Shown: piece after piece, positions 21,244-38,928 of the stretch | Numbering within the stretch: the stretch's first letter is position 1 | Layout of the letters: each line of letters begins with the position of its first letter | DNA from: Spinacia oleracea | Lineage: Eukaryota; Streptophyta; Magnoliopsida; Caryophyllales; Amaranthaceae | Assembly: GCF_020520425.1 (NCBI RefSeq) | Contig: NC_079492.1 | Location: 137,706,361 to 137,770,360, forward strand | Reading direction: 5' to 3' | Length of the DNA stretch: 64,000 nucleotides | Translations under genes and position numbers: made by a program | The notes under the pieces: generated by a model | What the model was told of the DNA's origin: nothing | What the model saw: the letters and a program-made list of their open reading frames with translations, nothing else | Databases searched by the model: none

Positions 21244-22355
21244 GATGGTGTCAAGGTCTTCTAGACAACCTTGCTTAGGTATTAAATTATTTTATCAATT
21301 GTCAACCAATGACAACGAATTGTGTACTATTATGAAGAATTCCACATTGTAATGTGTTTGCTAATTGGGAACAAAAGTCACTCTCTTTTTGTCTCAAATT
21401 TGGTTTCGTATACCGTAAATAATATTTAACCATGCTTTCAACTAAACGGCCTGAAATTTGACCACCTTTAAATAAGAATTTACATGTTCTCGATCTCAAA
21501 CTTCATGTTTACTACCTCGTTCAATACTAGTTGTTCATATTGGTATGTAAAAATTGATCCGGACCAAAAAAAAAAGGACCGGACCGGATTGGACCGATCC
21601 AAATCGGACCGGACCTGACCTGACCGAAGGCAATCGGTCCGATTTTCGAGTCGAGAAATTTCAATTTCCAGTCTTCAGTCCGGTCCAAAATTCGATTTTT
21701 GCTTAACAAAATATAATAAAACCTATTTAAAAGTTTTATTCTCTCTTTTATTATGTTGTAAACATTACTCCCTCCGTTTCTTTTTGTTGTATCCGTTTCC
21801 TTTTTAGTCGTTTCATAATGTTGTATCCACTTAGAATCTTTCCATTTTTGGACATACTTTTTTTCCTAAAATACCCTTATATTTCAATCTAATAACCAAA
21901 AAACCTAAAGAATCTACCCATATTCCCACCTAATTTTCCCCACCCATAATATTTTATTCATTTAACCCACCCACCTCCCTTATTAAATTAATAAAACCCT
22001 AACGTCACTCTCACCTCTCTCTCCTTATAACCCGTCCCTCTCACCCTCTCTCTCCTCATTCTCTTCGGATCCCTCTCTCCTCCTGTCTCCCTCTCTCTCC
22101 TCAAGAAATCTCTCTGTTTCTCTAAAAATCCTAACCTTCTCCGCCCCTGTTCTTCGTTTTTTTTGGTGAGATCTCTCAGATCTTTGGGGTTTTCGCTCAA
22201 AATTGTTCTCAAACTTTAACCGGAACGACATTCCGGTGAGATCCCCTCTAGTTTTGTCCCCTTTGTCGTCCCAAATCCCGGTTGGTAATCGATTCTCTGG
22301 TGAAATTTTTTTGGGGATAAAATCGGAGTTTTATTAGGGTTTTATTAATTTCTTA

Positions 22356-23481
22356 ATGGGATCCTCTTCCTCCAAATATCTTCCGACTTATTCGGTTGGT
22401 ACTTCTGGGCAACGAATTCCTGACTCAAACTGTGATTGGGGCTCGAAATGCATTTGTCCCAACAACGAGCACTCGTATTCTGGCGAGTATCTGAATAATT
22501 TGAGGTTGGCCCAGAAGGAGAACACGAGTACCCGAAATTATCTCAAAGCTTGGTTTGAGAAAATGGAAGTGGAGCCTGGTGAAGAGGTGGAGTCCAAATA
22601 CGACGATCGAGTCCCCACACCAGCAGATCTGAGATTCTTTGGAGGAGACGAATCTGATGAGGTATATTTCCTTATTTTTGGGTTTTTTTTCCTGATTTTT
22701 CGAGTTAATTAGGGTTTACTCTGTTTTTGGGATTTTTTGTGTTTCTTGGAGAAAATCTGTGATTTTTGGTTGAAACGTAGGTTTTCTAATAAAATTAGGG
22801 TTACTCTGCATGTTCTGATTTTTTGAGATTTTTTGTGAATTTTAATGATTTTTTTTCATTTGTTGATGATTTTTGTGAATTGTTTTAGATTTAACATTGG
22901 TTCATTTTTGTGATCATGCATGTCCCATAAATGTTTGATTTTTGTGTTAAATGATGAAGTTTTCGAATTGCATGTCAGAGATTCGTTGATAATTTTTGTT
23001 AAATGATGAAGTTTTCTAATTGCATGTAAGAGATCCCTTGATTTATTTTGTTAAATGATAAATTTTCGAATTGCATGTCAGAGATCCCTTGATTTTTTTG
23101 TTAAATGATGAAGTTCATGAATTGCATGTTAGAGATCCCTTGATTTTTCTCGATTTTTATGAGTTTATTTAAATTGCATGTTGAATACCATGAATGTTGG
23201 TCTGTTTTGGTTGATTTGGATGTTCAATTCCATGATTACTTTGATGATGTTGTTCTTTGATCTTGTTAAGTTGATGTGAAATATATTAAACATATTTTAT
23301 GTCCCCTCTTGATTGCAAGGAACCCAATCACTCTGATTCATTCGACCTATACTATGTGGGTGAGTGTGAGAACACAACTGCTGGTCCAGAGGTTTCTGAT
23401 GGGCAATGTTCGGTTTCGTCCCCAAACGTGAAGGAAGATGAAATAAAAAAAAAGCCACCTAAGGGTGTTGATGATGCTTAG
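22356..23481 (+). CDS. Unrecognised 155-aa protein gene inside the mariner-like element (two exons)
   Basis: Predicted CDS is join(22356..22661, 23320..23481). The donor GAG^GTATAT and acceptor TGCAAG^GAA are both canonical and the join keeps phase 0, giving DESDE-EPNHSD. About 330 bases of CT-rich sequence ahead of the ATG looks like a plant 5' UTR. The protein is hydrophilic. It starts MGSSSSKYLP, which is compatible with N-myristoylation. A Cys cluster follows at residues about 27-40 (C-x5-C-x-C-x4-H), then an Asn/Lys-rich middle, an acidic segment and a Lys-rich tail ending KKPPKGVDDA. I do not recognise a family. It runs convergently to the transposase gene and upstream of the foldback array. 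It could be an accessory transposon protein or captured host sequence. Expression and splicing are not proven. Confidence 0.5.
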
Positions 23482-23639
23482 AGATAAGTGTGTCTTCTAT
23501 AAACCCTCTTTTAATTATATTTGGATTGCTGGTTAGCTGTGGAGACATAAGGTGGAGTAGCCAACAACTGTGATCTGTTGTTGGCAAGGGGTGTTGTTGT
23601 TTTGTTGATGATGTGATAGGGTTTGGAGTGTATTCATGT

Positions 23640-23830
23640 CCTCTATTATTGCCTTGTTGCTTGAAACATGTTGCCTTGTTGATTGATGAATGTTGCCTTG
23701 TTGATTGATGAATGTTGCCTTGTTGATTGATGAATGTTGCCTTGTGTGCTTGCTGATTTAATAATGTTGCCTGTTGAAACTGTCATATGTTTGCTGGTTG
23801 ATTAGTGTTGCCTTGAGAGGGGTGAAAGCA
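23640..23830 (+). repeat. Interspersed and tandem TTGCCTTG repeats
   Basis: The word TTGCCTTG or TGCCTTG appears about eight times. It includes a three-fold tandem of a 22-base unit (GTTGCCTTG then TTGATTGATGA) around 23670-23740. The same word returns at 24780-24800, 25190-25220 and 25720-25830. Clustering inside a DNA transposon suggests transposase-binding subterminal repeats, or simply slippage. Confidence 0.6.
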
Positions 23831-23951
23831 TATGGGATGGGTTTATGAATAAAATTTTAACATGTGATTGGAAAAAAACAGTTTCATTAAAGTCCCCTCT
23901 TATTGTTTGTCTTTCCTGAATGCTTGGTCTGTGATGTTAGGGTTTGAATGA

Positions 23952-24105
23952 GGTCTATGATGAGTCTTTCAGTGCTGAGAAACTATCCATGTTTCATAAA
24001 CCACAGTGCGCCATTAGCATCCAGCCGTAGGCTGTATGAGGCTTTTGTGTGCTAATGGTTTGTGAACATGGTGTGGTTCAATGAAGCTTGGGGACATCTG
24101 AGACC
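23952..24105 (+). ncRNA. Foldback unit A (C/D-box-like architecture)
   Basis: Closing stem GGTC (23952-23955) pairs with GACC (24102-24105). Inside it come ATGATGA (957-963 past 23000), an 11-base spacer, CTGA (23975-23978), an imperfect stem-loop of about 95 bases (arms sharing CCATGTTTC / GAACATGG and ACCA...CCATTAGCA / TGCTAATGGT), a degenerate AATGAAG, the spacer CTTGGGGACAT and CTGA (24098-24101). I infer a structured RNA; transcription is unproven. Confidence 0.45.
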
Positions 24106-24117
24106 AAATTTAACATG

Positions 24118-24170
24118 ATGATGAGTCTTTCATATGCTGAGTCTTTCATATGCTGAGAAACAATTCAAGT
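24118..24170 (+). repeat. Truncated duplicate of the unit B 5' half
   Basis: ATGATGAGTCTTTCATATGCTGA is followed by a second GTCTTTCATATGCTGA and the first bases of the next stem (GAAACAATTCAAGTTAC). It then breaks off just before unit B restarts at 24173. This looks like local tandem duplication of the 5' end of a unit. Confidence 0.7.
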
Positions 24171-24172
24171 TA

Positions 24173-24321
24173 CATCGATGATGAGTCTTTCATATGCTGA
24201 GAAACAATTCAAGTTACCTACACTCACTCGTGCTGCCATTAGTATCAGTGATGATGCTTCTCAGGCGCTAAGTGTGTGTAGGTTGAATTTGTTTCAATGA
24301 TGCTTGGGGACATCTGAGATG
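24173..24321 (+). ncRNA. Foldback unit B (best-preserved C/D-box-like unit)
   Basis: Closing stem CATC/GATG (24173-24176, 24318-24321). ATGATGA (24178-24184) is followed by a 12-base spacer and CTGA (24197-24200). A stem of about 30 bp follows, with arms GAAACAATTCAAG and TTGAATTTGTTTC continuing into CCTACACTCAC / GTGTGTGTAGG. Then come ATGATG (24297-24302), the spacer CTTGGGGACAT and CTGA (24314-24317). The order C, D', C', D with 11-12 nt spacers and an internal stem matches a compact box C/D RNA. An alternative is one long imperfect MIRNA-like hairpin. Confidence 0.5.
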
Positions 24322-24358
24322 AATTTTGATGTCATGCATGTTTTACTTTTGTTAGTTA

Positions 24359-24443
24359 GGTGGTCCTTCAAAGGGGATTGACTTATTTTTAAATATCCAA
24401 TGCGATAGTTCACAATTTGTCAATTCCCTTTGGAAGGACCACC
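24359..24443 (+). ncRNA. Near-perfect hairpin, MIRNA-precursor-like
   Basis: The 5' arm GGTGGTCCTTCAAAGGGGA continuing to TTGAC (24359-24382) pairs with the 3' arm GTCAATTCCC continuing to TTTGGAAGGACCACC (24419-24443). There is one bulged base and one mismatch over about 24 bp, and a loop of 36 bases. Weaker pairing continues outward. Arm length and quality fit a plant MIRNA or siRNA-producing foldback. I recognise no known miRNA in it. Confidence 0.5.
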
Positions 24444-24483
24444 ATGACACTTAAACAACATGTTTGATTGTGGTGTTAATGAT

Positions 24484-24679
24484 AATCAATGATGTTAAAG
24501 GTTGATATCCTGAGATTTATGTTTCAATACTTGTCCTTTAACTCCTTTTGTCGAATGGAGTGATTGTCATTTCACATGATCAGTAGTGAATATCAATCAT
24601 TCCGTTCGGCAAAAGGATGTTAAAGTTGAGAAAATATTGATACAATAGATCAATGATGCTATTCAACAACTCTGAGATT
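24484..24679 (+). ncRNA. Foldback unit D (C/D-box-like, longer internal stem)
   Basis: Closing stem AATC/GATT (24484-24487, 24676-24679). ATGATG (24489-24494), a 15-base spacer and CTGA (24510-24513) follow. The stem is long, with arms about 24514-24568 and 24591-24650; the best part is CTTTAACTCCTTTTGTCGA against the complement of TTCGGCAAAAGGATGTTAAAG. Then come ATGATG (24653-24658), a 13-base spacer and CTGA (24672-24675). It has the same order of parts as units A to C but a different stem sequence. Confidence 0.45.
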
Positions 24680-24819
24680 GGAACCCTAATGTTTGCTAAT
24701 GTCCCATGTGTGAGTTTGGTCATTGTTAAAATTTGGAAACATACTACATATATGCTGTAAATCAACCTATCTGAGATTGTTGTGCCTTGTCCATTGCTGC
24801 CTTGTTATTTGTTTTGAGT

Positions 24820-24964
24820 CATCTATGATGAGTCTTCATTTGCTGACACTCAAACCCTATATTCCATTAACACTCATGCGCCATTAGCATGAATAATGCT
24901 TCTCAGGAGCTAAGTGTTGGTGGATGGGGTTTGTGTGAGGGATGCTTGGGGACATTCTGAGATG
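24820..24964 (+). ncRNA. Foldback unit C (C/D-box-like)
   Basis: Closing stem CATC/GATG (24820-24823, 24961-24964). ATGATGA (24825-24831), spacer GTCTTCATTTG and CTGA (24843-24846) follow. The stem carries CAAACCCTAT / ATGGGGTTTG-type arms and a central CGCCATTAGCAT shared with unit A. The second C-like box is degraded to GGGATG before spacer CTTGGGGACATT and CTGA (24957-24960). The length of 145 bp is close to units A (154) and B (149), so the three are related copies. Confidence 0.45.
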
Positions 24965-25018
24965 GTTGTGTGTACTTGCTTCTATGTACTTGATGCCTTC
25001 TTCTTCATGCTTTGTTCA

Positions 25019-25145
25019 ATGATGAATTGGTTTAAGCATATCGAATTTTACTTTTGTTGACGCATCGGTATCTAGGTGGTAAGATTTTCCATCTGAAAAT
25101 GATGTGATATGCATTCTTTCCACTTAGATGACGATGTGTTTAGAG
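25019..25145 (+). ncRNA. Foldback unit F (partial, apical CTGA/ATGATG)
   Basis: ATGATGA (25019-25025) leads to an imperfect hairpin with arms about 25060-25090 (CGCATCGGTATCTAGGTGG) and 25111-25138 (CCACTTAGATGACGATGTG). CTGA and ATGATG lie side by side in the loop (25093-25104). No 3' CTGA closes it, so it looks like a decayed or incomplete copy of the unit G first stem. Confidence 0.4.
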
Positions 25146-25229
25146 AAGTGATTTTGCATATGACTTTCTAAGTATGTTGTAAGTAAATACCTTGCCTTTG
25201 CTGCCTTGCTCATGGCCTTGTTTTTTTGA

Positions 25230-25528
25230 GTTGTTCAATGATGAAATGATTTAGTAACTCGAATATTACATCTTTTGACGCATCGGTTTCAAAATGGGAA
25301 TAAATTCCATCTGAAAATGATGTGATATTCATTCTTTCCATTTTGAAGCTGATGTGTTTAGAGTTGTGATTTTGCATGTCCTGAGTTTCCTACACTTTTA
25401 GTATCCTCTGTCAAATGGAGTGACTTTCCTTTCCCATTTCTGTTTGTGTTAGTCATTCACTCCATTTGGGAGGAGGATATTAAAGTTTAGGATTCAATGA
25501 TGATGAACACATACAAACTGAGAACAAC
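25230..25528 (+). ncRNA. Foldback unit G (two-stem composite with 7-bp closing stem)
   Basis: GTTGTTC (25230-25236) pairs perfectly with GAACAAC (25522-25528). Inside come ATGATGA (25238-25244), then a stem-loop with CTGA and ATGATG in its apex (25311-25322; arms TTTCAAAATGGGAAT / ATTCTTTCCATTTTGAA). CTGA (25381-25384) follows, then a second stem (GTATCCTCTGTCAAATGGAGTGA against AGTCATTCACTCCATTTGGGAGG), ATGATGA (25497-25503) and CTGA (25518-25521). It is the largest unit and its closing stem is the clearest in the array. Confidence 0.45.
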
Positions 25529-25715
25529 ATGTCCCCATGCTTTGCCTTGGCTTGAAAATGAATTCATGTGTTGCCTTGAAAACATAAAGTTGTCCCCTTA
25601 ATGGTTTAAGGAATGGCTGACTCATTAAATTGGTGTTTTGTGTTTCAATTACAACTACAAATAAGAAACATGATTGTGAATATGATGAACAAAAACTAAA
25701 CTATGATTGTGATAA

Positions 25716-25940
25716 CCTAGTTATTGTTGCCTTGTTGATGCTGTCTTGTTCATATTGCCTTGTGCATTGCTGCCTAGTTATTGTTGCCTTGTTGATGCTG
25801 TCTTGTTCATATTGCCTTGTGCATTGTTGCCTTATGATTTTGACTTATCCTGAAATCATATGTTAATATGCAATGTACATGTTCCCTTATGATTTTGAAT
25901 AATCCTGAAATCATATGTTAATATGCAATGTACATGAATA
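25716..25940 (+). repeat. Two adjacent tandem duplications (57 bp and 55 bp)
   Basis: A 57-base unit starting CCTAGTTATTGTTGCC occurs at 25716-25772 and 25773-25829, almost identical. Immediately after, a 55-base unit starting CTTATGATTTTGA occurs at 25831-25885 and 25886-25940. Both lie in the mariner-like element between the foldback array and the end of the transposase gene. Confidence 0.85.
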
Positions 25941-26154
25941 ACTACAAATATGTGAGTATGATGAACAAAAACTAAAGATTAACAACAACAAATTGATTCA
26001 TTCATTCTTCCAGTTGATATGTTGCTTCCAAAATGTTTTAAATACATGTGATGCTTTCATTCAAGCTTACAAAAGTGACATTTTGTTTGCTCTTGTAACT
26101 TTTAAAACATGTTCCCAAAACACAAAAAGTAATCTCTCGTTCTTGCTCTATACT

Positions 26155-26538
26155 TCACTGATTTGCTCTCCATTCATCAACAAGTTGTTTGCATTCATTC
26201 ACAGCCCACCTTGGGGCCTTAACTTGTTCTGGCAGATTCCCCTCATCTTCTAAAATCTTTTTCTTGTTGTGTGGGAGTTGGTAGTCATTGTCCCCCTTGT
26301 GTTTCAAAATTTCATTTCCAACATATTGAAGTGACATCCACACATTAGATAGAGTCTTTGCATGCAGTTCATTATATGCCTCAGTCACAGCACCACTTAA
26401 ATCTTCAACTGTTTTAGGCATCTTTTTGTGCATTAGTGATTGAATTGACCTAAAGAACCCCAAGTCTAATATGTTACAATCTGGACTGTTTGCTGGCTGC
26501 TGAGTCAATATCAATGTGAAGCCATCTTGCTTGTAATG
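26155..26538 (-). pseudogene. Mariner-like transposase, C-terminal part (severed)
   Basis: This is the 3' portion of the transposase gene, separated from the rest by the LTR element. If the LTR element and one copy of TAATG are removed, the frame runs on from 36798 without a stop: QQHY continues into KQDGF. It supplies the third catalytic aspartate (LDLGFF, in the plant mariner context NSPDCNILDLGFF), 39 residues after the second, giving the plant-type DD39D triad. The C-terminus ends EWRANQ before the TGA at 26155-26157. Confidence 0.85.
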
Positions 26539-27839
26539 TGTTAGGTTATGATACATATGACATTACATAGATCATGCGGAAACAACCATTAACCCAGGAC
26601 AACATATTATTTACACATAATCATATAGCATAATTTAGATGCATACTCTTTGTTGCGTGCCTTCCCTAGCTGCGCCCGAACCGAACAAGAACAAGTCTTT
26701 AGGACTCCAAGTGTCGTCCCTCCGTAGATAGTCCACAGCACGTCCGGATCCGCCTTAAGATTGACCAACTAGAATCGCCCTTAAGGTTCTAATATTTTCG
26801 GTTAGGTAGGCAACAATATTGGCTGATTTTTCTGCTTAAAAATCTTAGTTTTGAATACTTAAAACTTGTGTATAAATTATGACCCCTAGGCCTTTATTTA
26901 TAGAGTTATGGAAAAGGAATCGTAATCCTAGTAGGATGCGAATTAATTGGAATTAGAATTCTACATGAATTCTACTTAATCAATTTATCCAATAGGAATA
27001 GACATTTAATCATACACTGACTCTTGCAGATTCAGGAATCTCGCATGAGCTCAAACTCACACACACACGGCAGCCACAAGGGCTGCCCACGCATGCGAGC
27101 AGCAGCCCACGCAGCGCGGCCCACGCATGCGTGGCCTTGTGCGCGCTGGGCTGTGGCGTGCGTGCTTGCTGGGCGATGGCCTGGCTTCGTGCTGGGCCTT
27201 CGTCCGGCAGGCCTCGTCCGATGCTAATTCGTACGATACGCTTCCGATTAAAATTCCATTTCCGGAATCTATTTCCGATACGAACAATATTCAATATTTC
27301 CGATTCCGGAATTAATTTCCGTTTCGAACAAATATTTAATATTTCCGTTTCCGGAATTATTTTCCGATTCCGGTAATATTTCCGATTCTGACAATATTTC
27401 CGTTTCCAACAATATTTTCCGATACGTACCATGTTTCCGTTTCCGGCAACATCTACGACTTGGATAATATTCATATTTCCGATACGATCCATATTTCCGT
27501 TTCCGGCAATATCATCGTTTCCGGAGTATTCATTTCTTGCCTGTGACGATCTTAGCTCCCACTGAAACCAAGATCCGTCGGTTCCGAATATTCATAGATG
27601 GAGTATTTAATGCCATTAAATACTTGATCCGTTTACGTACTATTTGTGTGACCCTACGGGTTCAGTCAAGAGTAAGCTGTGGATTAATATCATTAATTCC
27701 ACTTGAACTGAAGCGGCCTCTAGCTAGGCATTCAGCTCACTTGATCTCACTGAATTATTAGCTTGTTAATTAATACTGAACCGCATTTATTAGACTTAAC
27801 ATAGAATGCATACTTGGACCAAGGGCATTATTTCCTTCA
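26539..27839 (-). repeat. 3' LTR of the LARD-like element
   Basis: 1301 bp. On the minus strand it contains TATAAATA (26895-26902). It also contains a GC-rich block (about 27060-27230, GCATGCG and GCTGGGC words) and a region of about 295 bp (27241-27535) built from TTTCCG/TTCCGG words. The open frames across this region are products of these repeats, not genes. Confidence 0.95.
27241..27535. repeat. TTTCCG / TTCCGG word array within the LTR
   Basis: About twenty imperfect repeats of TATTTCCG(A/T)TTCCGG-like units with AATATT spacers. The same array appears in the other LTR at 36199-36493. TTCCGGAA is self-complementary, so the array reads as degenerate palindromes. Confidence 0.85.
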
Positions 27840-30800
27840 GTCTCCCACTTGTCCTTAGGGACAAGTGTGCATTTCCTAATTCCTTTGTCGCTCGATGCTT
27901 GCTCTTGAACATAAGGTAAGAGTTGTCATCCTTATTATGTCCAGAGGTGTTCCTCGGTTTCAGAGTTCAACTGATCAAATAAACAGATAATCATAGCCTA
28001 TGATTCATCCGAGCACGGCCATGCATTTCACAGTTTCTAGCTCTCCGAGTGGCCTTGTACAACTTTTAAGCATCTCATCCCGATTTATGGGAGGACAATC
28101 CCAATCTTGCGATCTTGAGATTAGACTTCGTTTGATAGGTGATTACCTGAGCGTTGCCTTTATAGCCTCCTTTTACGGTGCGACGGTTGGTCAACGTCAA
28201 AGCAACCAGTTCTCAAACAAGTAATCTCAAATCACTCAGGTATTGAGGATTTAGTGTCTAATAATTTAATGAAATTTACTTATGACAGACTTTCATCTCT
28301 TACAGTAAAGTTTCATAGGTCTTGTCCGATACTAGTCTTCCCAAAGTAAGTATCTATGCAAATGATTATGACATTGCCATGTCCACATAGTTCAAGAAAC
28401 AGAACTACTAGTCATCTTGCATTCTAATCGTCTAACGTTTTCTATGCGTCCAATTTTATAGAAAACTCCGACTAGGGACCATTTTCAACCTTTGACATTC
28501 AAGTTCACTTGATAGACATTTCTTAGTCACAGGACTGGTCCTGACAGTCTATCTTGAATATATCGTCAAATTTGAAGGGACTCATCATTTAATACTAAAC
28601 CAAGATTAAATGGAATATGAAAATACATTTCATATATGATAAATGTTCAACCCCAATGTTTTATAACCATGGGCCTCAAACCCATCTTCTAAAACAATTC
28701 ATGGAATTCAAAGCTATGCTTGATTTCCAGTGCTACAACGTGAGTGTTGCTTCTCACTTGTTGCATAGGTTTAGTTATCATGCTTTGCCAATCTTAATAT
28801 CCTTTTCATCGAATGTTCTTCGAGATATGATGATAAGATCTTTTCGAGTTTGTTTATTATGTGATCTAGTCTTTCTTACTTCGATGGTGGTATTACTCAT
28901 TTTGCAATGAAGAACCATCAAGTTAGCAGACGTTTTTCTTGCTTCAAGAGTGGTTCCACGCATTTTTCAATGAAGAACCATCAAGCCAGCAGATAGGTGA
29001 TCTACCCAAGTTCAGTGAAGAACTTTAAACAACCCTGTTTTATTGCTTCTTAGGCAATAATTACTTTTACTTCAACTGTATAGGTTGCTAGTGATGCTTT
29101 GTTTGGATTTACCTATCCAAGCAGTTCATAGATATGTGGTAGACTCTCCAACTATATCTTAGAACATAGAAATTAATATTTTAATTTCCCACGCAACAAC
29201 TCATGGTCTCCAATCCATGTTGCCATTTCAAAACACGATGCTCTATAGCTCGTCTTTATCAATGGTTAACTCCAAAGGGTCTTGCTTGATCCTTTGCCAG
29301 TGTTTATGCGTGTAGCATCAATATTTAGCGTATCTTTATTTCCTTGAATCAAGAACTATTCCTATGTACCTTTTCAAGTACCATAAGTATTCTTGATCTC
29401 AATCTAGTTGATCTTCACTTAGATCAATAGAGATTGGTATATGTTCGTCATGCCTAAAGTCATACGATACGTTTTTGGCGATCCTCATATTATATCATAC
29501 ATGATAAATTCTTTTGCAGAATAATTCCTAATTGAATTCTATTCATGTAACTTTAGCTTATTCAATTTCAGCAGATACTGAATCCAGCTAAATTCTTTGA
29601 CATATAATATAGGTTAAGAATCTCATTTAGACTCTTTGATGTTTAACTTAGTAAATGCTTATACATAGTTCAAACATTCTTTACTTAGATTTATTCATAT
29701 GGGTCGAATATCTCCAATGGAGTCTTTCGTGTTTGATTTAGTAAATGCCATTACTTAATCCAAAACAATATCATAAGATCTTTGTAAATAGATCTTAATA
29801 CCCAGTATGTACTAAGTTTCGCCATGGTCCATCATTGATAAATAATCTCAAGTCTAAGTCATTAGCATTTGAATGTTATTTTACAATAGAGAGATATGTG
29901 TGTGATACACATAGGACCAATTAAGTTTTTATGTACTCCCACTAAACTTCTTATATATCTATAAGAATCATGTATATTTTATGAAACTAAAATACTTATT
30001 AGCTTCACTAAAATACATTTCTAATTCCCAATTGCTTGCTTAAATCTGTACTTTAGATTTCATAAGCTAGCTTTCTTTTTCAAGCATTTATTTGGATCCA
30101 CAAATCCTATGACATACCATGTACATAGTTTATTCCAACATTTGATTGAGGAATACGTTTTGTCATCCAATTGCTATATGTACCAATATGCAATCATTGC
30201 TTGAATTATAGACTTGAGCATTACGATTATGCATGAGGTTTCAACACAATCCATGCCATGAATTTGCTTGTAACCTTTAGCAACTAATCTAGCTTTGTGT
30301 GTGAACACAATTCTTGTTTGATGGTTTTTATCCTTAAAACAAACTTGCAACCAATAGGTGTGAAACTATTCTTGCAAATCAACAAAATTTCAATTTTGTC
30401 ATCAAAACATTGAGTATGGTTTATGGCCTCTAACCATTTAAAACATTTGAGTCTATATATGGCCTCTAACCATTTTAGGGAATCTAGGTTTCGTCATAGC
30501 TTTCTTACAAGTCACAAACTCATTAATCTACATGATAATAGTTTGACTGCAAGTTGTAGGTTTCTTCACTATTTAATAGAAGAATCTCATAGTTTCATTG
30601 ACCTGATCTCTATGTTTCTTTACTATCTAATAGAAGAATCTCATAGTTTCAGTGACTTGAATTCTATGCCTACTTGGGTATAGAACATCAAACATTAGAA
30701 TATCAATAGCCACTTAAAGTCCTTTGAATATTCTGTTCTCCTTGAAGCACTTGTAAAGTCTTCTAAGAGATGTCTATTCTTTAAAGCCACTTCTAAAGTC

Positions 30801-33800
30801 TTAAAGAATAAGTTTGGATTTTCTGAAGCACTTCGAAAAGCCTCCGGAATGTCCGTTTTATGTTTGTTGTTCGCCTCGAAAACTTTCGAGGTCTATTTTC
30901 TCCCACTTGTCATTTTGGAAACGAATCTCCAAAAGGACATTATTTCGAGCAAACAAACATTATGTTCTCAAAAATTCGTGGTAGAAACAATACCCTTGTG
31001 TCTCATTTGAATAAATCACAATGAAACATATATCTAGACTTGGGCCTTAGTTTGTTGAATAACAAACACTAAGCTCCCACTGAGTTTAGCAACTCTTTAG
31101 ATATATATAATTGAAAAGATATCCTGAAATTACTTTTCAATAGCTTTGACGAATTTGGTTTAGTTTGGTGGTAGTTGAGCATTTTGTTTTAGAAATTATA
31201 GGAAAAGTCTTTATGATTCATCATTGATCGAATCAAGTACTAATTGACTTCGATCATTCCAACGTAGATATGCCATATCTTATGGAGCTAGATTGTGAAA
31301 TTACAACACACAATCATTGATGATCATATTTGGTCTCAAGTAATCATCAACATGATCTAACCTAGATCTTTATGATTTCTTGCCGAGTGGATTTTATACT
31401 TCTGAATCTTTGAACTAGCCAAACAGATTCAACTTATATCACATTTGAGTAAATAAACCTATATTCACTCAAATCCATGTGAAATAATAAAGTCATAAAA
31501 CCTTTCTTTAGCTTTGAACTCTATCGTCTAGGCGTTCTAACAATAGTTCATATTCTTTGTTACTTTCAACAAGTAAGACTAGCTTGTCTTAAGTTGATTT
31601 AGAAATCAACCAACTTTCAAAAGTCCATCAAAATAGAGCTTATGAATGTTAACTTGTTGATATGGTCTAAGCAACAATGCCAAAGATTTAATGGAACTCA
31701 AATCAAGGGTTTGATTTGAACCTAGTAAAGTTCTTTAAAGAGTTGTTTGTTTTAATCAAGCATATTGACTCAACCAGTAATTGACCATTTCATTCAAATA
31801 AACAAACAAACAAGCATTGTTTTTGTTCTTCTGAATGTGAGTCTTTCTGTGTTTGAAGCAGAAATTTAGGTATGCTGATTATGGAACAAAATAGCCATTA
31901 AGTTCCAGCCTTTGAAAGGACTTAAAACAAACTAGATGACCCTACAACTAATGTAGCATTGCCATGCTTCATTTCCCACTTGTAGGTCATTAGTGTATCC
32001 TAGCTTCCATTGTTTGAGTTATTACCGAAGTAAGAACCTCAAGCGGTATATGATACCAAGGAAGTTTGATTGCTAGGTCACTTTTCTTTAAACATAAACT
32101 TATAGGTAGAACCGGAATCGTAAATTCCTTTCATTTGTTCCTTTGTTTTCCTATTTCTTGTACCCTTTCTTATAGTCTTAAGAATTGAGTTCTCTAGTGT
32201 TGACTTTTATACTTTGTTAGACATTCCAATGTCACCAACAAGGTTCTTTAACATTTAATTTATGTTGAATATTAAGTTTCAACTAGATGATCTTACCAGA
32301 AGCTTCTAAAGTTCTCTAAGCATCGATCTATTCGAATGTCTAGGGACTAGACTCATTCGAGAATTAAATGGACAAAGATATTAGGTTGTTAACCATTGGT
32401 AAAGCTGAGCGTTTAAGCTCAATGCTTTATGATCTCAAAACTACAGTGTATTTTGAATTCACAAGCACCAATTGGTTTGCCATTCGAATTTGATATTCGA
32501 AAACAACCATAAAAGTCGATATAAGAAACGTACATTTTAAATTGCTCACTTTCTCTCTTTTCCGTGAATCGTTCTTGGATTCACTACCAATCGAGGAAAT
32601 TTACTGTTACCTTTCTAAAAGGATTTATTGCAGTGCAAGATATTTAATTATAAATAATAATTAAAACATACATTGAAGCATGCAAAGTCTAAACATTTAT
32701 CATGAATAATAACTTGAAATTAAAGCAACCATGCAATTCAAACAAGTTATTAGCATTTTATTCGATTTTATTGTTCCGGCAGGTGTGAATAAAATGATTC
32801 CAAGATCCTAAAACCATTGAAGAATTAAGCACAGTTTGTCGACTCAATTCTAAAACATTTTAGGTAAGCAAAAGCCTTTTGCTAATAGTCTAAAAACTAC
32901 TCTTGGTTGATAGGTACGTCTAAGAACTTATTAGGTAAACCTATCGATGTTGCCACGACATAAAAGGACTCCTTACTTATATCGTTGAGTTTCACCAAAA
33001 CTAACATGTACTCACAATTATTTGTGTACCTTGCCCCTTTAGGACCAATAAGTAACACCTCGCTGAGCGAAAACTATTACTAGATTGATGTAAAGGATAT
33101 CCAAGCAAGTGTATATTTTGGCATGGCACCTTTTAACTCAATTTTTAAGTTTGGAACTTAAGGCTCTTACTATGTTGGTTAGATTTTAAGTGAACTAAAA
33201 TCCTTAATCATGCAACATAATCAAGCTTTTGATCTCATGCATTTTAAGACATATTTAAAAGCAATAAATAACTTAAAACATGCATAAGATATTTGTGAAC
33301 TAGTATGGCCCGACTTCATCTTGAAGCTTTGACTTCAAAGTCCGTCTTGAAAATCTCCGTGGGAGGCACCATTTTCTTCAAATAGGATAAGCTATAACTA
33401 ATTACAACTATGTGATGGTTCGCAGACCATATTTGAATTGAAAAATAACTTTGGTACTTTAGACCAATTACATTCAAATTAATGGTACGCAGACCATATT
33501 TTCTATCCTATTTGGGCCATACTAGTCACTTCATAACCTGCAAAACAGTACATATACAATATATACCATTCACCCATTCATTATCATGAATGGCCCACAT
33601 AGCTGGTTAGTAAAACACATTATGCATCACGTAAACATTTGCAGCAATTAATCAAGGGCACCAATAATCTACCAATTATTCAGTCCTTATTAATTCTAAT
33701 CAAGTTGTTTTAACCTTAAGGATTTGTAGACCTAATCAAGAGTTTATGACTAAAAAGCGCTCCCACTCAAACCAATAAATTCATATGCTTTACTAATTTT

Positions 33801-34090
33801 AAACATAAAATTGTATTTCTAGTCTAACCGGAAACATACAAATTTAATTAAAATTTAAAGCTCATATAAATTTATAATTGAATCCAAAAATTTAATTTAA
33901 TTTAATTTCAGTCGCATTTAAATTAATTCATCATTTTAATTTTAGTAAAATAATTAGAATAAATACCATTTATTATAATTATAATATTCAAAATTAAAAT
34001 CCAAGAAATTAATTCAAATTATTAATTTTAAAATTAATTAAAATTACGTGAACTGAAATTTTCAAATTAAACATTCAAAACGATCTAATC
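27840..34090 (-). other. Non-coding interior of the LARD-like element
   Basis: On the minus strand this ends in a polypurine tract next to the 3' LTR (complement of GTCTCCCACTTGTCC at 27840-27854). No long frame or recognisable Copia/Gypsy motif survives. Near 33415-33505 the word ATGGT(T/A)CGCAGACCATATTT occurs twice, 67 bases apart. Whether the interior is decayed pol or unrelated sequence cannot be told by eye. Confidence 0.6.
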
Positions 34091-34094
34091 GTAA

Positions 34095-34730
34095 CGCAAA
34101 CACCCTACGCGTTGTACGCCCATGGGCCGTACGCACACAGCCATTGCTGGCCATGTGCGCGCAGCCCATGCGCTCGTCGCATAGCTGCTGCTGTCCTATC
34201 GCAAGCCTCCGCACAGCGCCCCATCGCACGCGAGCTATCGCTCGCAGTGCGCGCGAGATCGCTCGCTGGGCGCGCTGGCTCGCTCGCTGTGCGCGCGAGC
34301 CATCGCTCGCTGGGGCGCGACATCGCTCGCTGGGCGGGCGACATCGCGCGCTGTGCGCGCGAGCCATCGCACGCTGGGGCGCGACATCGCTCGCTGGGCG
34401 AGCGACATCGCGCGCTGTGCGCGCGAGTAGTGCTGGGCGCAGCGCTCGTGGCACGCGAGCTTGCGCTCGCTGCGCGCGAGGCTGCGCGCACTTGTGCGAG
34501 GCAGCGCGCGTTGTGGCGCAGCTCGCTTGCTGCCCACACGCGACTGCCTTGGCTCGCCCCTTCGCCCATGCCCATTCGTTCATTGCTCGTGGCACACGAC
34601 ACAAGGCAGGGCTGCTGCCTTGTGCTCGTGCACTACGCCCTTGCTCATTGCATTCGTGCCGCACGGGCGACGAGCTCCCTTGCTCGTCGTCGCATGCCCG
34701 CATTATACAACACCCCTTAAGGGTAACACG
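34095..34730. repeat. GC-rich low-complexity island in the leader of the LARD-like element
   Basis: About 630 bp built from CGCTCGCTGGGCG, GCGCGCGAG and GCCATCGC words. It has many CpG and self-complementary runs, while flanks on both sides are extremely AT-rich. All six frames are open for long stretches, which explains several spurious Ala/Arg-rich frames here. It lies about 0.8 to 1.4 kb downstream of the PBS in element orientation. It resembles the GC-rich block of the LTRs in word content (GCGCGCTGGG). Confidence 0.8.
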
Positions 34731-35483
34731 AAGCGTCCATTGCTTCGCGCGTGCAAGTTATTTGAACGAATCGCATAAAATTTAAAATTTATATTTAAAA
34801 TTAATGACAAATTAATAAATAATATTAATTTCATAATTTTAGGGCGAAAAAATCGAAAATTTATTATCCAATTGATTTCCGATTGATATGGATTCAAGTC
34901 TAGGTCATAAAAATTTAAAATTTATCGTAAATTTACAATTTTTATGGTGGTTTTTTAATCATAGGTTTCTAATTAAATTACAATTAATTATGAAAATCAA
35001 ATTAATTCTAAATTATTCTAATTTTCAACAAATTAATCATAATTACAAATTAGATTGCATAATTAACAAGACTAGGCATTCAAACTTGTTAAACATATGC
35101 AGTAGGTCAATCAAAAATTCAAGATTTATCAACAGGAATCGCAAATATTTAATTTAACATCTTAAATTTACGAAATTTTGCATTCGAAAAACTAAAACCT
35201 TCGAAAAGTCATAGTTAGGCTTCGAATTTGAGAATTCTGGGTTCGGCAGAAAAATACTATTTTTGTCAAAATTTTAGAATGCCTTTTACATGCGGAATTG
35301 ACACAAAAATCACTCAATTCGGATGAGTAATGAAGAAACTGCCGAAAAACTGCGTACGTATAATTAAATAAACGCAATTTGCAACTAATTAACAATTACG
35401 AAAATTAATCACCCCTTTTAATTCTTGCAAATTTGTAATATTTAACCATGTTCATGCAATTTAGATTATGAAAATAATAAGGG

Positions 35484-35495
35484 GCTCTGATACCA
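35484..35495 (-). promoter_or_regulatory. Primer-binding site of the LARD-like element
   Basis: The minus strand reads TGGTATCAGAGC one base inside the right-hand (5') LTR, complementary to initiator Met-tRNA. It fixes the element's orientation. Confidence 0.9.
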
Positions 35496-35496
35496 C

Positions 35497-36797
35497 TGTT
35501 AGGTTATGATACATATGACATTACATAGATCATGCGGAAACAACCATTAACCCAGGACAACATATTATTTACACATAATCATATAGCATAATTTAGATGC
35601 ATACTCTTTGTTGCGTGCCTTCCCTAGCTGCGCCCGAACCGAACAAGAACAAGTCTTTAGGACTCCAAGTGTCGTCCCTCCGTAGATAGTCCACAGCACG
35701 TCCGGATCCGCCTTAAGATTGACCAACTAGAATCGCCCTTAAGGTTCTAATATTTTCGGTTAGGTAGGCAACAATATTGGCTGATTTTTCTGCTTAAAAA
35801 TCTTAGTTTTGAATACTTAAAACTTGTGTATAAATTATGACCCCTAGGCCTTTATTTATAGAGTTATGGAAAAGGAATCGTAATCCTAGTAGGATGCGAA
35901 TTAATTGGAATTAGAATTCTACATGAATTCTACTTAATCAATTTATCCAATAGGAATAGACATTTAATCATACACTGACTCTTGCAGATTCAGGAATCTC
36001 GCATGAGCTCAAACTCACACACACACGGCAGCCACAAGGGCTGCCCACGCATGCGAGCAGCAGCCCACGCAGCGCGGCCCACGCATGCGTGGCCTTGTGC
36101 GCGCTGGGCTGTGGCGTGCGTGCTTGCTGGGCGATGGCCTGGCTTCGTGCTGGGCCTTCGTCCGGCAGGCCTCGTCCGATGCTAATTCGTACGATACGCT
36201 TCCGATTAAAATTCCATTTCCGGAATCTATTTCCGATACGAACAATATTCAATATTTCCGATTCCGGAATTAAATTCCGTTTCGAACAAATATTTAATAT
36301 TTCCGTTTCCGGAATTATTTTCCGATTCCGGTAATATTTCCGATTCTGACAATATTTCCGTTTCCAACAATATTTTCCGATACGTACCATGTTTCCGTTT
36401 CCGGCAACATCTACGACTTGGATAATATTCATATTTCCGATACGATCCATATTTCCGTTTCCGGCAATATCATCGTTTCCGGAGTATTCATTTCTTGCCT
36501 GTGACGATCTTAGCTCCCACTGAAACCAAGATCCGTCGGTTCCGAATATTCATAGATGGAGTATTTAATGCCATTAAATACTTGATCCGTTTACGTACTA
36601 TTTGTGTGACCCTACGGGTTCAGTCAAGAGTAAGCTGTGGATTAATATCATTAATTCCACTTGAACTGAAGCGGCCTCTAGCTAGGCATTCAGCTCACTT
36701 GATCTCACTGAATTATTAACTTGTTAATTAATACTGAACCGCATTTATTAGACTTAACATAGAATGCATACTTGGACCAAGGGCATTATTTCCTTCA
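35497..36797 (-). repeat. 5' LTR of the LARD-like element
   Basis: 1301 bp, the same as 26539-27839 apart from about two substitutions. It has a minus-strand TATAAATA at 35853-35860. It abuts the TAATG target duplication at 36798-36802. Confidence 0.95.
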
Positions 36798-38065
36798 TAA
36801 TGTTGCTGCCATTCTTGATCATTTTGCAAAATGTGTGCCTTTGCATTGTCTTGAATGATGTATATCACCCTTTCCCCCTCATGTGGTGGCCATTTCTCTT
36901 TAATTGCTGGGATTAGGTAGTTGATTAGCATGGCCCTAGTTGCAATCTGATTAACTGACTTGATTGGTTTAGTCTCAATTGTCCCCTTGACTCTATTTTT
37001 GGATGTTCTCTTTGCTGCCACTGCATCTGTGAATGGAAATATACCAAGTTTCCCATCCCACTCACACTGCCCATCTTGTCCCCACCTTGGCCTTGCTACT
37101 GCTGCCATAAACATGAACTTTGGAATCTTAGTTCTTGATTTTCCCTTCCTGTGTGGAAATGGTTCATTGTTTGCTAAATAAACTCTTTGACTTTTTTGTG
37201 TAAGATAGAACCATTTCTCATCGATGTGAATGAAATCATACATGCTGTAATATGTGGGATCATTTGGTATTGAGTAGTCCATTAAGAGACCAAGTACCCA
37301 CTTCATCCTTGCCATCTTGCATTCTTCTGAAATGCCTGGATTCAATGGACTTGAATGTGGTTTTATCTGTTTTCTTTTCACCATTCTCCAAACTGTTGTG
37401 GGACTCAAATTGAGCATCCTTGCTAGATCAATAATGGTTGTTCTATCCCCCATGGCTATGGAGGCTATAGACTCATATGTTACTTGAATTCTCTTTCTCC
37501 CACAGTTGTGATATTTGCTATCATAGAAATACGAATCCATGGCTGCCTTATGTGCCAATGCTCTCTGCCATATTAGTCTAATTGTCTTCCTTGTGTAACC
37601 AAACTTTATAACAGCCTGCCTATTTGTCCCATGAATGAGTTCATCTGAATGCTTTTCTTTTCTTAAGAGAAGGAACAACAAGATTTCCAACCTTAATTCG
37701 TTGTTAATCCTTGGGGTTCTAGGCTTATGATGATTTTGCTCTGTTTCTGTTTGATGAATTGGAGATGGTGGGAACTCTTGTTGTGTTGGCATGTTCAAAT
37801 CAAACAAAAATGGAACTGAGTGGTTATCTGATATACCTGATGTATGATGTGGTCCCACTTCACATTCTTGTGCATATTCTTGTCCCACTTCATTCAGATC
37901 TGGCAATTGTTGATTTTGCTCAAAGTCCCCTATTTGATGAGCATTTACTTCACTTACAGCATTTTGGGTTGCTTCATCATCATTATAATCTGAATCAGAG
38001 TTCGTGCCGTCTCCTTCATCATCGGAAAAACCGAGGAACTCGTCCTCCTCTTGATCTGAAGCCAT
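36798..38065 (-). pseudogene. Mariner-like transposase, N-terminal and catalytic part (severed)
   Basis: The gene starts at ATG 38065 with a long acidic, Asp/Glu/Asn-rich N-terminal region (residues 1-120). A DNA-binding region follows, with a helix-turn-helix at about residues 195-235 (TIIDLARMLNLSPTTVWRMV). Then comes the catalytic domain, with first Asp in HIDEKWFYL (about residue 282) and second in IIQDNAKAH (about residue 406). The frame is open to the LTR insertion at 36797. Together with 26155-26533 it would make 548 residues with no stop or frameshift, so the only visible lesion is the insertion. Plant mariner transposases cut and paste at TA sites and also mobilise Stowaway MITEs, whose CTCCCTCC ends this element shares. 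Confidence 0.9.
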
Positions 38066-38178
38066 TAATGTCCCCTTGCTGATTAATTGTAGTGCATTTA
38101 TTGCCTTTGGTTTTTTGTTGTTGTAACTGATATTAAAACAGTTGGAATTTATGAGGGTTTTTGGGTAGAAATTGTCCC

Positions 38179-38187
38179 CTATTTATA
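38179..38187 (-). promoter_or_regulatory. TATA box of the mariner transposase gene
   Basis: The minus strand reads TTTATAAATAGGGG about 115 bases before the ATG, implying a leader of about 85 bases. It lies inside the element, about 430 bp from its right end. Confidence 0.55.
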
Positions 38188-38928
38188 AAGGGTGGTAAAT
38201 GTATAAAGTTTGGAGGGAAAAAGTTTGGAGGGAAAACTTTTTGGTAAATTTCTGTTTTTGGAGGGAAGTGTAAAAAGGGAAGTGGACTTTCCCAATTTGG
38301 GAAGTCTTCCCTCCGTTTTTTTCTGTTGCTGTAATCTCATTGGATGAAATAAATCCACCTCATGTACTTTGGTCCCCACTTCAATCAGATTTTTTCTGAT
38401 TTTTGATTAATTAAATGAAAATATCCCCTTTCCCATAATTCTTTAATATTTTCTCTCTCCTTACTTTAATCTTTAAAAAAGAATCTCTTACACATTCTTA
38501 CACACAATCATTTCTCTTACACCCAATCATTACACTTATACCCATACAAACCAAGATTCTATTTTTCTTAAAAACCCCCCAAGATTCCAAATGGATACAA
38601 CATTTAGAAATGGAGGGAGTACTATATTGTGATATATTTTATTTTAGCTTCCAAAAAAAGCCTTAAACAATTAGTTTTTTTTTTATATATTTTTTCTTTT
38701 TTACCATAATTTTTATAAAAATAAAAAAAAATATAGAAATAGGTCTATAACCGGTCCAAACCGGTCCGGTCCGGGTTTTGGACCGATTTTTCCGGTCCAG
38801 TCCGGGTTCGGTCCAAGCATAATCGGTCCGGTCTTCGGGTCTTGAATTATCACAATTTCGGTCTTCGGTCGGTCCGAGTCAGTCTGGTTCGGTCCGGGTT
38901 TGGACCGATGAACACCCCTAGTTGTTCA

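Follow-up and report, generated by a model that had tools for sequence, protein, structure and literature searches.

Small RNAs of the box C/D design are usually products of host housekeeping genes. In mammals, small nucleolar RNA (snoRNA) retroposons (snoRTEs) are retroposed copies of host snoRNAs. VANDALs, which enter the comparison for a different reason, are Mutator-like elements. In VANDAL21, VANC21 binds motifs that form arrays of a single orientation; the motif of VANC6 is AGTTGTCC (PMC5735166, available part). To judge from the available part of PMC12045711, the nearest known arrays on mobile elements are the TIGR arrays of TIGR-Tas systems, which are found in phages and parasitic bacteria. 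Here, we describe an array of foldback units within a mariner-like DNA transposon of spinach, in a stretch of 64,000 nucleotides (nt) of Spinacia oleracea (NC_079492.1, positions 137,706,361 to 137,770,360; hereafter the window). The array lies at 23952-25528 on the + strand, downstream of a second gene of the element, ORF2. We propose that it probably specifies transposon-encoded box C/D-type RNAs, arranged as a polycistron in a DD39D mariner-like element that has intact copies. On the sequence evidence, the best reading of such RNAs is that they are orphan or self-directed.

The array consists of five units. Each opens with one half of a closing stem of 4-7 bp, a single unpaired nucleotide and box C, and continues with D', an inner stem, C', box D and the second half of the closing stem. 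The long inner stem takes the place of the D'-C' loop, and the spacers between boxes are mostly 10-14 nt. Three of the units are of type I: unit A at 23952-24105 (closing stem GGTC/GACC; box C at 23957, D' at 23975, D at 24098), unit B at 24173-24321 (CATC/GATG; 24178, 24197 and 24314) and unit E at 24820-24964 (CATC/GATG; 24825, 24843 and 24957). The spacer before box D, which is among the most conserved stretches of a type I unit, reads CTTGGGGACAT in units A (24087-24097) and B (24303-24313); the spacer of unit E is CTTGGGGACATT. The type II unit at 24484-24679 (AATC/GATT; box C at 24489, D' at 24510, D at 24672) has a long inner hairpin, and its closing stem comes solely from the closure scan described below. 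The type III unit at 25230-25528 (GTTGTTC/GAACAAC; box C at 25238, D' at 25381, D at 25518) has two stems. Folding z scores against shuffles are -7.9 for the type II unit and -7.2 for the type III unit, and closures similar to that of type III, of 5-7 bp, occur in eight other loci (L010, L023, L026, L027, L029, L031, L036 and L042). A sequence-only reading of the window had placed boxes and closing stems of five units here; all five were found where it put them, with every closing stem as it gave them and the last as the two-stem variant it described.

Two other repeats accompany the units. The start of unit B is partially duplicated in tandem at 24115-24172 on the + strand (ATGATGAGTCTTTCATATGCTGA). 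The heptamer TGCCTTG is repeated on the + strand, often between units, and the - strand has none in any of the 11 array-bearing loci that were counted (11 versus 0 in L010, 33 versus 0 in L033); examples in the window lie at 23649-23830 and 24780-25835.

Could box-like letters at the base of stems arise by chance? We scanned the array for [AG]TGATG followed 60-320 nt downstream by CTGA, with four Watson-Crick closing pairs at an offset of 0-2 nt. Seven closures were found on the + strand and correspond to the five units, two being alternative partners. In 2000 dinucleotide shuffles the mean was 0.0965 closures and none reached seven, and the reverse strand of the array gave none. We repeated the count with the full box, [AG]TGATGA, over 12 loci, namely L010, an intact copy of the element, and 11 diverged loci. 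The + strand has 34 closures at an offset of one nucleotide, versus 0, 1, 0, 0 and 1 at offsets of 0, 2, 3, 4 and 5; the - strand has none at any offset, and two of the 12 loci (L033 and L039) have no closure under this strict rule. A one-nucleotide offset between stem and box C is the register of C/D kink-turns, as in the archaeal L7Ae-box C/D structure, and it is the signature of a kink-turn. Chance occurrence of the boxes is disfavoured because of the shuffle and register tests together. At the level of sequence, the boxes and the register of the units are those of a C/D and a C'/D' kink-turn placed back to back around spacers.

Homologous arrays allowed us to ask whether the structure is kept. 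For this purpose, 14 loci of diverged subfamilies were taken from the genome. Type I units that score above 100 bits with model R1 are present in 11 of them, all in the orientation of ORF2. The remaining three (L030, L035 and L040) have no unit, and their similarity to the element stops upstream of the array. Including the three of the window (142.6 bits for unit A, 166.9 for unit B and 161.9 for unit E), 34 type I units exceed 100 bits. These scores are not independent evidence, since 21 of the 34 units are themselves rows of the model and the three in the window are duplicates of another three rows. Those rows come from L009, which shares 99.8% identity with the window across the element. 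Genome-wide, there are 536 exact type I D halves versus none for a reversed control pattern. Our search for type I D halves gave 94 matches, four of them without box C, and left 46 distinct sequences; one false match (L039:305) was dropped, and removal of sequences with more than 97.5% similarity left 24 rows. The type II alignment has 10 rows from eight loci, with three of the 13 units (in L022, L023 and L027) omitted. The alignments cover types I and II.

In the 24 type I rows, 95.7% of stem cells are paired, as opposed to 28.1-42.5% when the partners are slid, and 15 of the 24 stem pairs show double compensatory changes. On a tree made from the unpaired columns, coincident double steps number 15, versus 2-6 in the slid controls. 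The closing stem (helix 1) is paired in 92.7% of cells, with double changes at two of its four pairs. It occurs as GGTC/GACC, CATC/GATG, GATC/GATC and GTTC/GAAC, and three rows have an intermediate, GATC/GATG, with one mismatch. The inner hairpin of type II is paired in 95.8% of cells, and 12 of its 31 pairs are doubly changed among the 10 rows. Both stems of type I and the inner stem of type II covary, in these alignments, across diverged subfamilies. G-U cells far outnumber A-C cells (43 versus 7 in type I, 41 versus 4 in type II), which indicates that it is the + strand RNA, not the DNA, that keeps the pairing; by this measure, the + strand RNA is the folding molecule. Because the folded shape is kept while the letters change, we suggest that the element makes and uses such RNAs.

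The boxes are conserved along with the stems. In type I, box C is RTGATGA in all 24 rows, with A or G at its first position, and box D is CTGA in register in 23, the remaining one being shifted by an alignment gap. D' is CTGA in 21 of the 24 rows, and C' is ATGATG or ATGAAG in 16 and degenerate in the others. From closing stems of this one array that differ yet stay paired, the sequence-only reading had suggested selection on RNA structure; box positions that hold in diverged copies and stems that covary among homologues support that structural reading.

Of the features that define box C/D snoRNAs, the units have boxes C and D, the kink-turn closing stem and the C'/D' boxes; a spacer beside D or D' that is complementary to ribosomal RNA (rRNA) was not found. 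We compared the ten spacers of the window with 18S and 25S sequences of Arabidopsis, of which the 18S was 95% identical to that of this genome and the 25S matched it in pieces of 68-98%. The D' spacer of unit B can pair over 10 nt with 18S, which only 1 of 60 shuffles equalled, and it varies between units. Two other spacers can form 10-nt pairings with rRNA that include a G-U, and 3 and 8 of 60 shuffles did as well. The comparison gives no support to the view that the units guide rRNA modification. We label the RNAs C/D-type, and not rRNA-guide snoRNAs, because the testable sequence features are shared and the search for rRNA targets failed.

Several observations weigh against the proposal that these are C/D-type RNAs. 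For the conserved D spacer we found no convincing rRNA target; its best match is 9 nt with one G-U in the Arabidopsis 25S, and for the three forms of the spacer 11, 11 and 17 of 60 shuffles did as well. The window has no match to an Rfam family at gathering score, and the Rfam matches listed for the eight diverged loci that were searched all score lower. At 145-300 nt the units are long, and C/D boxes are missing from the base of two foldbacks in the array (about 24359-24443 and 25032-25159). The outermost pair of the closing stem is open in 5 of the 24 type I rows, in one case through an alignment shift. The number of further pair types was matched by 9 of 500 shuffles for type I and by 162 of 500 for type II. 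Energy-based folds draw no kink-turns. In the RNAalifold consensus of type II the closing stem is open and a spacer is paired to box C', and in the consensus fold of type I parts of the spacers are paired. The second of the two foldbacks is itself an 81% copy of part of the type III unit.

The element that carries the array extends from 21768 to 38619. It is bounded by terminal inverted repeats (CTCCCTCC), which we take to be a hallmark of plant mariner-like elements, and is flanked by TA target duplications at 21766-21767 and 38620-38621. Its length is about 6.6 kb without a nested insertion at 26540-36797, which is like a long terminal repeat (LTR) retrotransposon, to judge from its paired repeats. 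In the window copy the insertion interrupts the transposase gene, on the - strand, leaving a C-terminal part at 26155-26539 and another part at about 36798-38065. We took 20 further copies of the element from the genome and aligned them to the window. All 20 align across the insertion point at 26540 without the insertion. The left end is TA followed by CTCCCTCC in 19 of them and TA followed by CACCCTCC in one; the right end was located in 18, all of which end in GGAGGGAG followed by TA, and was not found among the 20 stretches in L022 and L026. Copy L010 has an intact transposase open reading frame of 548 amino acids on the - strand. In this protein HTH_24 scores above its Pfam cut-off, no Pfam transposase model exceeds its own cut-off, and there is no PDB match; a count by eye gives the spacing D..D(39)D, presumably that of the plant DD39D class. 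That class is named in the available part of PMC4054914. With TA duplications, inverted repeats and DD39D spacing all present, the element is, by its sequence characters, a plant mariner-like element of the DD39D type.

Two things go beyond the sequence-only reading, namely the gene upstream of the array and the complementarity of a spacer core to a motif found throughout the element. The gene, ORF2, lies at 22356-23481 on the + strand, opposite to the transposase. Exon 1 (22356-22661) is followed by an intron (22662-23319) and exon 2 (23320-23481), which ends in TAG; the splice sites were inferred from the sequence. At least 150 places in the genome were scored for the exon 1 protein, at 75-100% identity. 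The median ratio of nonsynonymous to synonymous divergence (dN/dS) is 0.21 over 66 pairs of subfamilies, those with dS of 0.1 to 2 among 78 pairs; L030 and L033, which yielded no clean exon 1, were excluded. The pair of window and L029 has a ratio of 1.38 at a dS of 0.015. Given the median, ORF2 is very likely a real second protein under purifying selection. Its exon 1 has no Pfam or PDB family match above cut-off. A tandem repeat of 51 bp occupies 22935-23148 within the intron.

The array lies downstream of ORF2 on the same strand, and the predicted ORF2 transcript would continue into it. The putative promoter of this + strand gene contains a telo-box, AAACCCTAA, at 21994-22002, and a reversed telo-box, TTAGGGTTT, is found at 22334; there is no exact Site II element in 21766-22400. 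Telo-boxes and Site II elements mark the promoters of plant snoRNA and ribosomal protein genes (PMC4660826, available part), and we counted the telo-box upstream of the array in favour of C/D-type RNAs. In the mechanism we envisage, the units would be cut out of the ORF2 transcript, as in plant snoRNA clusters, and would be bound by the host C/D proteins SNU13/15.5K, NOP56, NOP58 and fibrillarin. The two spacers of type II look, by eye, partly complementary to one another, and since they may pair mutually, type II units would be structural and not free guides.

What might the type I units recognize? Their conserved spacer before box D contains GGGGACA, the complement of TGTCCCC, and this heptamer pair is the most over-represented in L010 (12 occurrences versus 0.95 expected). 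On the + strand of the 12 loci there are 61 TGTCCCC and 32 GGGGACA, and 30 of the 32 GGGGACA have CTGA within the next 7 nt. This count leaves out L030, L035 and L040, which hold 0, 1 and 0 TGTCCCC. The window copy has nine TGTCCCC on the + strand of the element parts, all outside the units: one at 23300-23306, close to the 3' end of the intron inferred for ORF2, and others that start at 22255, 25530 (directly after the last unit of the array), 25591, 26289, 36980, 37077, 38069 and 38173. Outside the element parts, the 57,404 bases of the window contain no TGTCCCC and one GGGGACA, and the 64,605 bases flanking the 20 copies, with the right flank missing for two, contain neither. As far as base complementarity goes, the + strand of the element itself offers the spacer of the conserved units many sites for a pairing of 8-9 nt. 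On the transposase strand, 38173-38190 reads TATAAAT followed directly by AGGGGACAAT, and the motif may lie near the start of the transposase transcript.

It is conceivable that the type I spacer CTTGGGGACAT pairs with UGUCCCC repeated on the same strand of the element, and that the resulting ribonucleoprotein then marks the RNA of the transposon itself, protects it or is retained at it. In its full form, the idea is that a C/D guide array of the transposon reads an element-wide motif, as RNA-guided self-recognition through host C/D proteins; from the sequences we regard this as doubtful. Equally speculative is the suggestion that such self-recognition would mark, protect or de-silence the transposon, as an RNA counterpart of VANC proteins. 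The longest duplex of the conserved D spacer with the + strand of the element is 10 nt with one G-U, and 6, 5 and 10 of 60 shuffles gave duplexes as good. The case for self-targets hence rests on the number of sites, as no single duplex is outstanding. Two more facts speak against self-targeting: in 36 of 45 contexts TGTCCCC is followed by T, whereas pairing with the spacer calls for A at that place, and of the nine L010 sites five lie in, or just upstream of, the coding sequence of the transposase, on its antisense strand.

An alternative explanation for TGTCCCC, to which we give a chance somewhat short of even, is that a protein of the element, either ORF2 as a VANC-like anti-silencing factor or the transposase, recognizes it as a DNA motif; the inverse motif in the spacers of type I would then be a coincidence that became fixed in the ancestral unit. 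Sites upstream of both genes, at the end of the intron and in coding sequence are in keeping with this, as is the preferred T after CCCC, which does not fit the spacer. Among the 11 loci with an array that were counted, 9 have the VANC6 motif, AGTTGTCC, on the + strand. By analogy, a motif in one orientation that is bound by an anti-silencing protein would explain TGTCCCC as well as pairing with the spacer, or better. Against it, 30 of 32 + strand GGGGACA closely precede a CTGA, and exon 1 of ORF2 has no Pfam or PDB match above cut-off. This explanation concerns the motif and not the C/D boxes; it is silent on boxes, register and covariation.

The units could also be real RNA structures that act as cis elements of the ORF2 transcript and are never excised or used as guides, with roles in stability or nuclear retention, or with kink-turn binding proteins that shield the 3' region. 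We consider this unlikely. The position of the array downstream of ORF2 on the same strand agrees with it, as do the mutual complementarity that the type II spacers appear to have, the RNAalifold pairing of GTC with GAC of two type I spacers in 22-24 of 24 rows, and the failure to find an rRNA target. However, every unit has its own closing stem in the C/D register and the number and order of units vary between copies, as expected of separate RNAs, and the spacer before box D is one of the best conserved parts of a type I unit.

Excised C/D-type RNAs of the transposon itself remain the explanation that we favour over a third possibility, that the array is a captured host snoRNA cluster that hitch-hikes without function for the transposon. 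Plant snoRNA clusters are polycistronic and have telo-box promoters (PMC4660826, available part), and the putative promoter here has a telo-box. However, capture is very unlikely in view of a structure that is kept across subfamilies whose ORF2 sequences differ from that of the window by a dS of 0.015 to 1.9, with one pair beyond estimate. In addition, units multiply within arrays (L036 has five type I D halves), no Rfam snoRNA reaches threshold and no rRNA guide was found. That the foldbacks are DNA-level palindromes, either nested miniature inverted-repeat transposable elements or transposase-binding repeats with boxes by chance, is hardly credible: long inverted repeats are present, two of them without boxes, but the shuffle and register tests, the compensatory changes and the excess of G-U over A-C, whereby only the + strand RNA keeps its pairing, all contradict it.

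How do the spinach units compare with described systems? They resemble plant box C/D snoRNAs in box C (RUGAUGA), box D (CUGA), the C'/D' boxes, the closing stem and the one-nucleotide register, as well as in their tandem clustering and the telo-box upstream. Unlike those, they lie inside a DNA transposon and exist in hundreds of copies, they reach 145-300 nt by virtue of a long D'-C' stem, they have no rRNA guide that we could find, and their spacer core is complementary to the element's own motif. snoRTEs likewise involve snoRNA copies spread by mobile elements, whereas in spinach the array belongs to the interior of a DNA transposon. Among the titles and openings of abstracts listed we found no report of C/D RNAs within a DNA transposon, in a search that did not extend to preprints and most subscription papers. 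VANDAL elements and their VANC proteins share with the spinach element a further protein gene and a short, dense motif in one orientation, and AGTTGTCC resembles the TGTCCCC sites; they differ in that the available part of PMC5735166 describes no C/D RNA array.

If our proposal is correct, it reveals a new way for a cut-and-paste transposon, one that retains and multiplies C/D-type RNAs under selection on their structure, to use the RNA-protein machinery of its host, and the complementarity between spacer core and element motif makes a self-directed function directly testable. Two parallels come from outside the eukaryotes. According to the available part of PMC12045711, TIGR arrays are also tandem arrays on mobile elements, with dual spacers between C/D-like boxes and units in stem-loop form, and the bridge RNA of IS110 is a structured, transposon-encoded RNA related in design to C/D RNAs. 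In contrast to TIGR-Tas, the spinach element has kink-turn boxes of the snoRNA type and a eukaryotic host, its type I units share nearly one D spacer, and, where TIGR-Tas encodes a Nop-domain effector beside the array, Pfam detects no Nop domain in the two proteins scanned, the transposase and ORF2 exon 1. In contrast to IS110, its transposase is of the DD39D mariner type and gives no sign of RNA guidance. The array would also stand as a eukaryotic case beside the link, described recently, that joins C/D RNAs, TIGR arrays and the IS110 bridge RNA.

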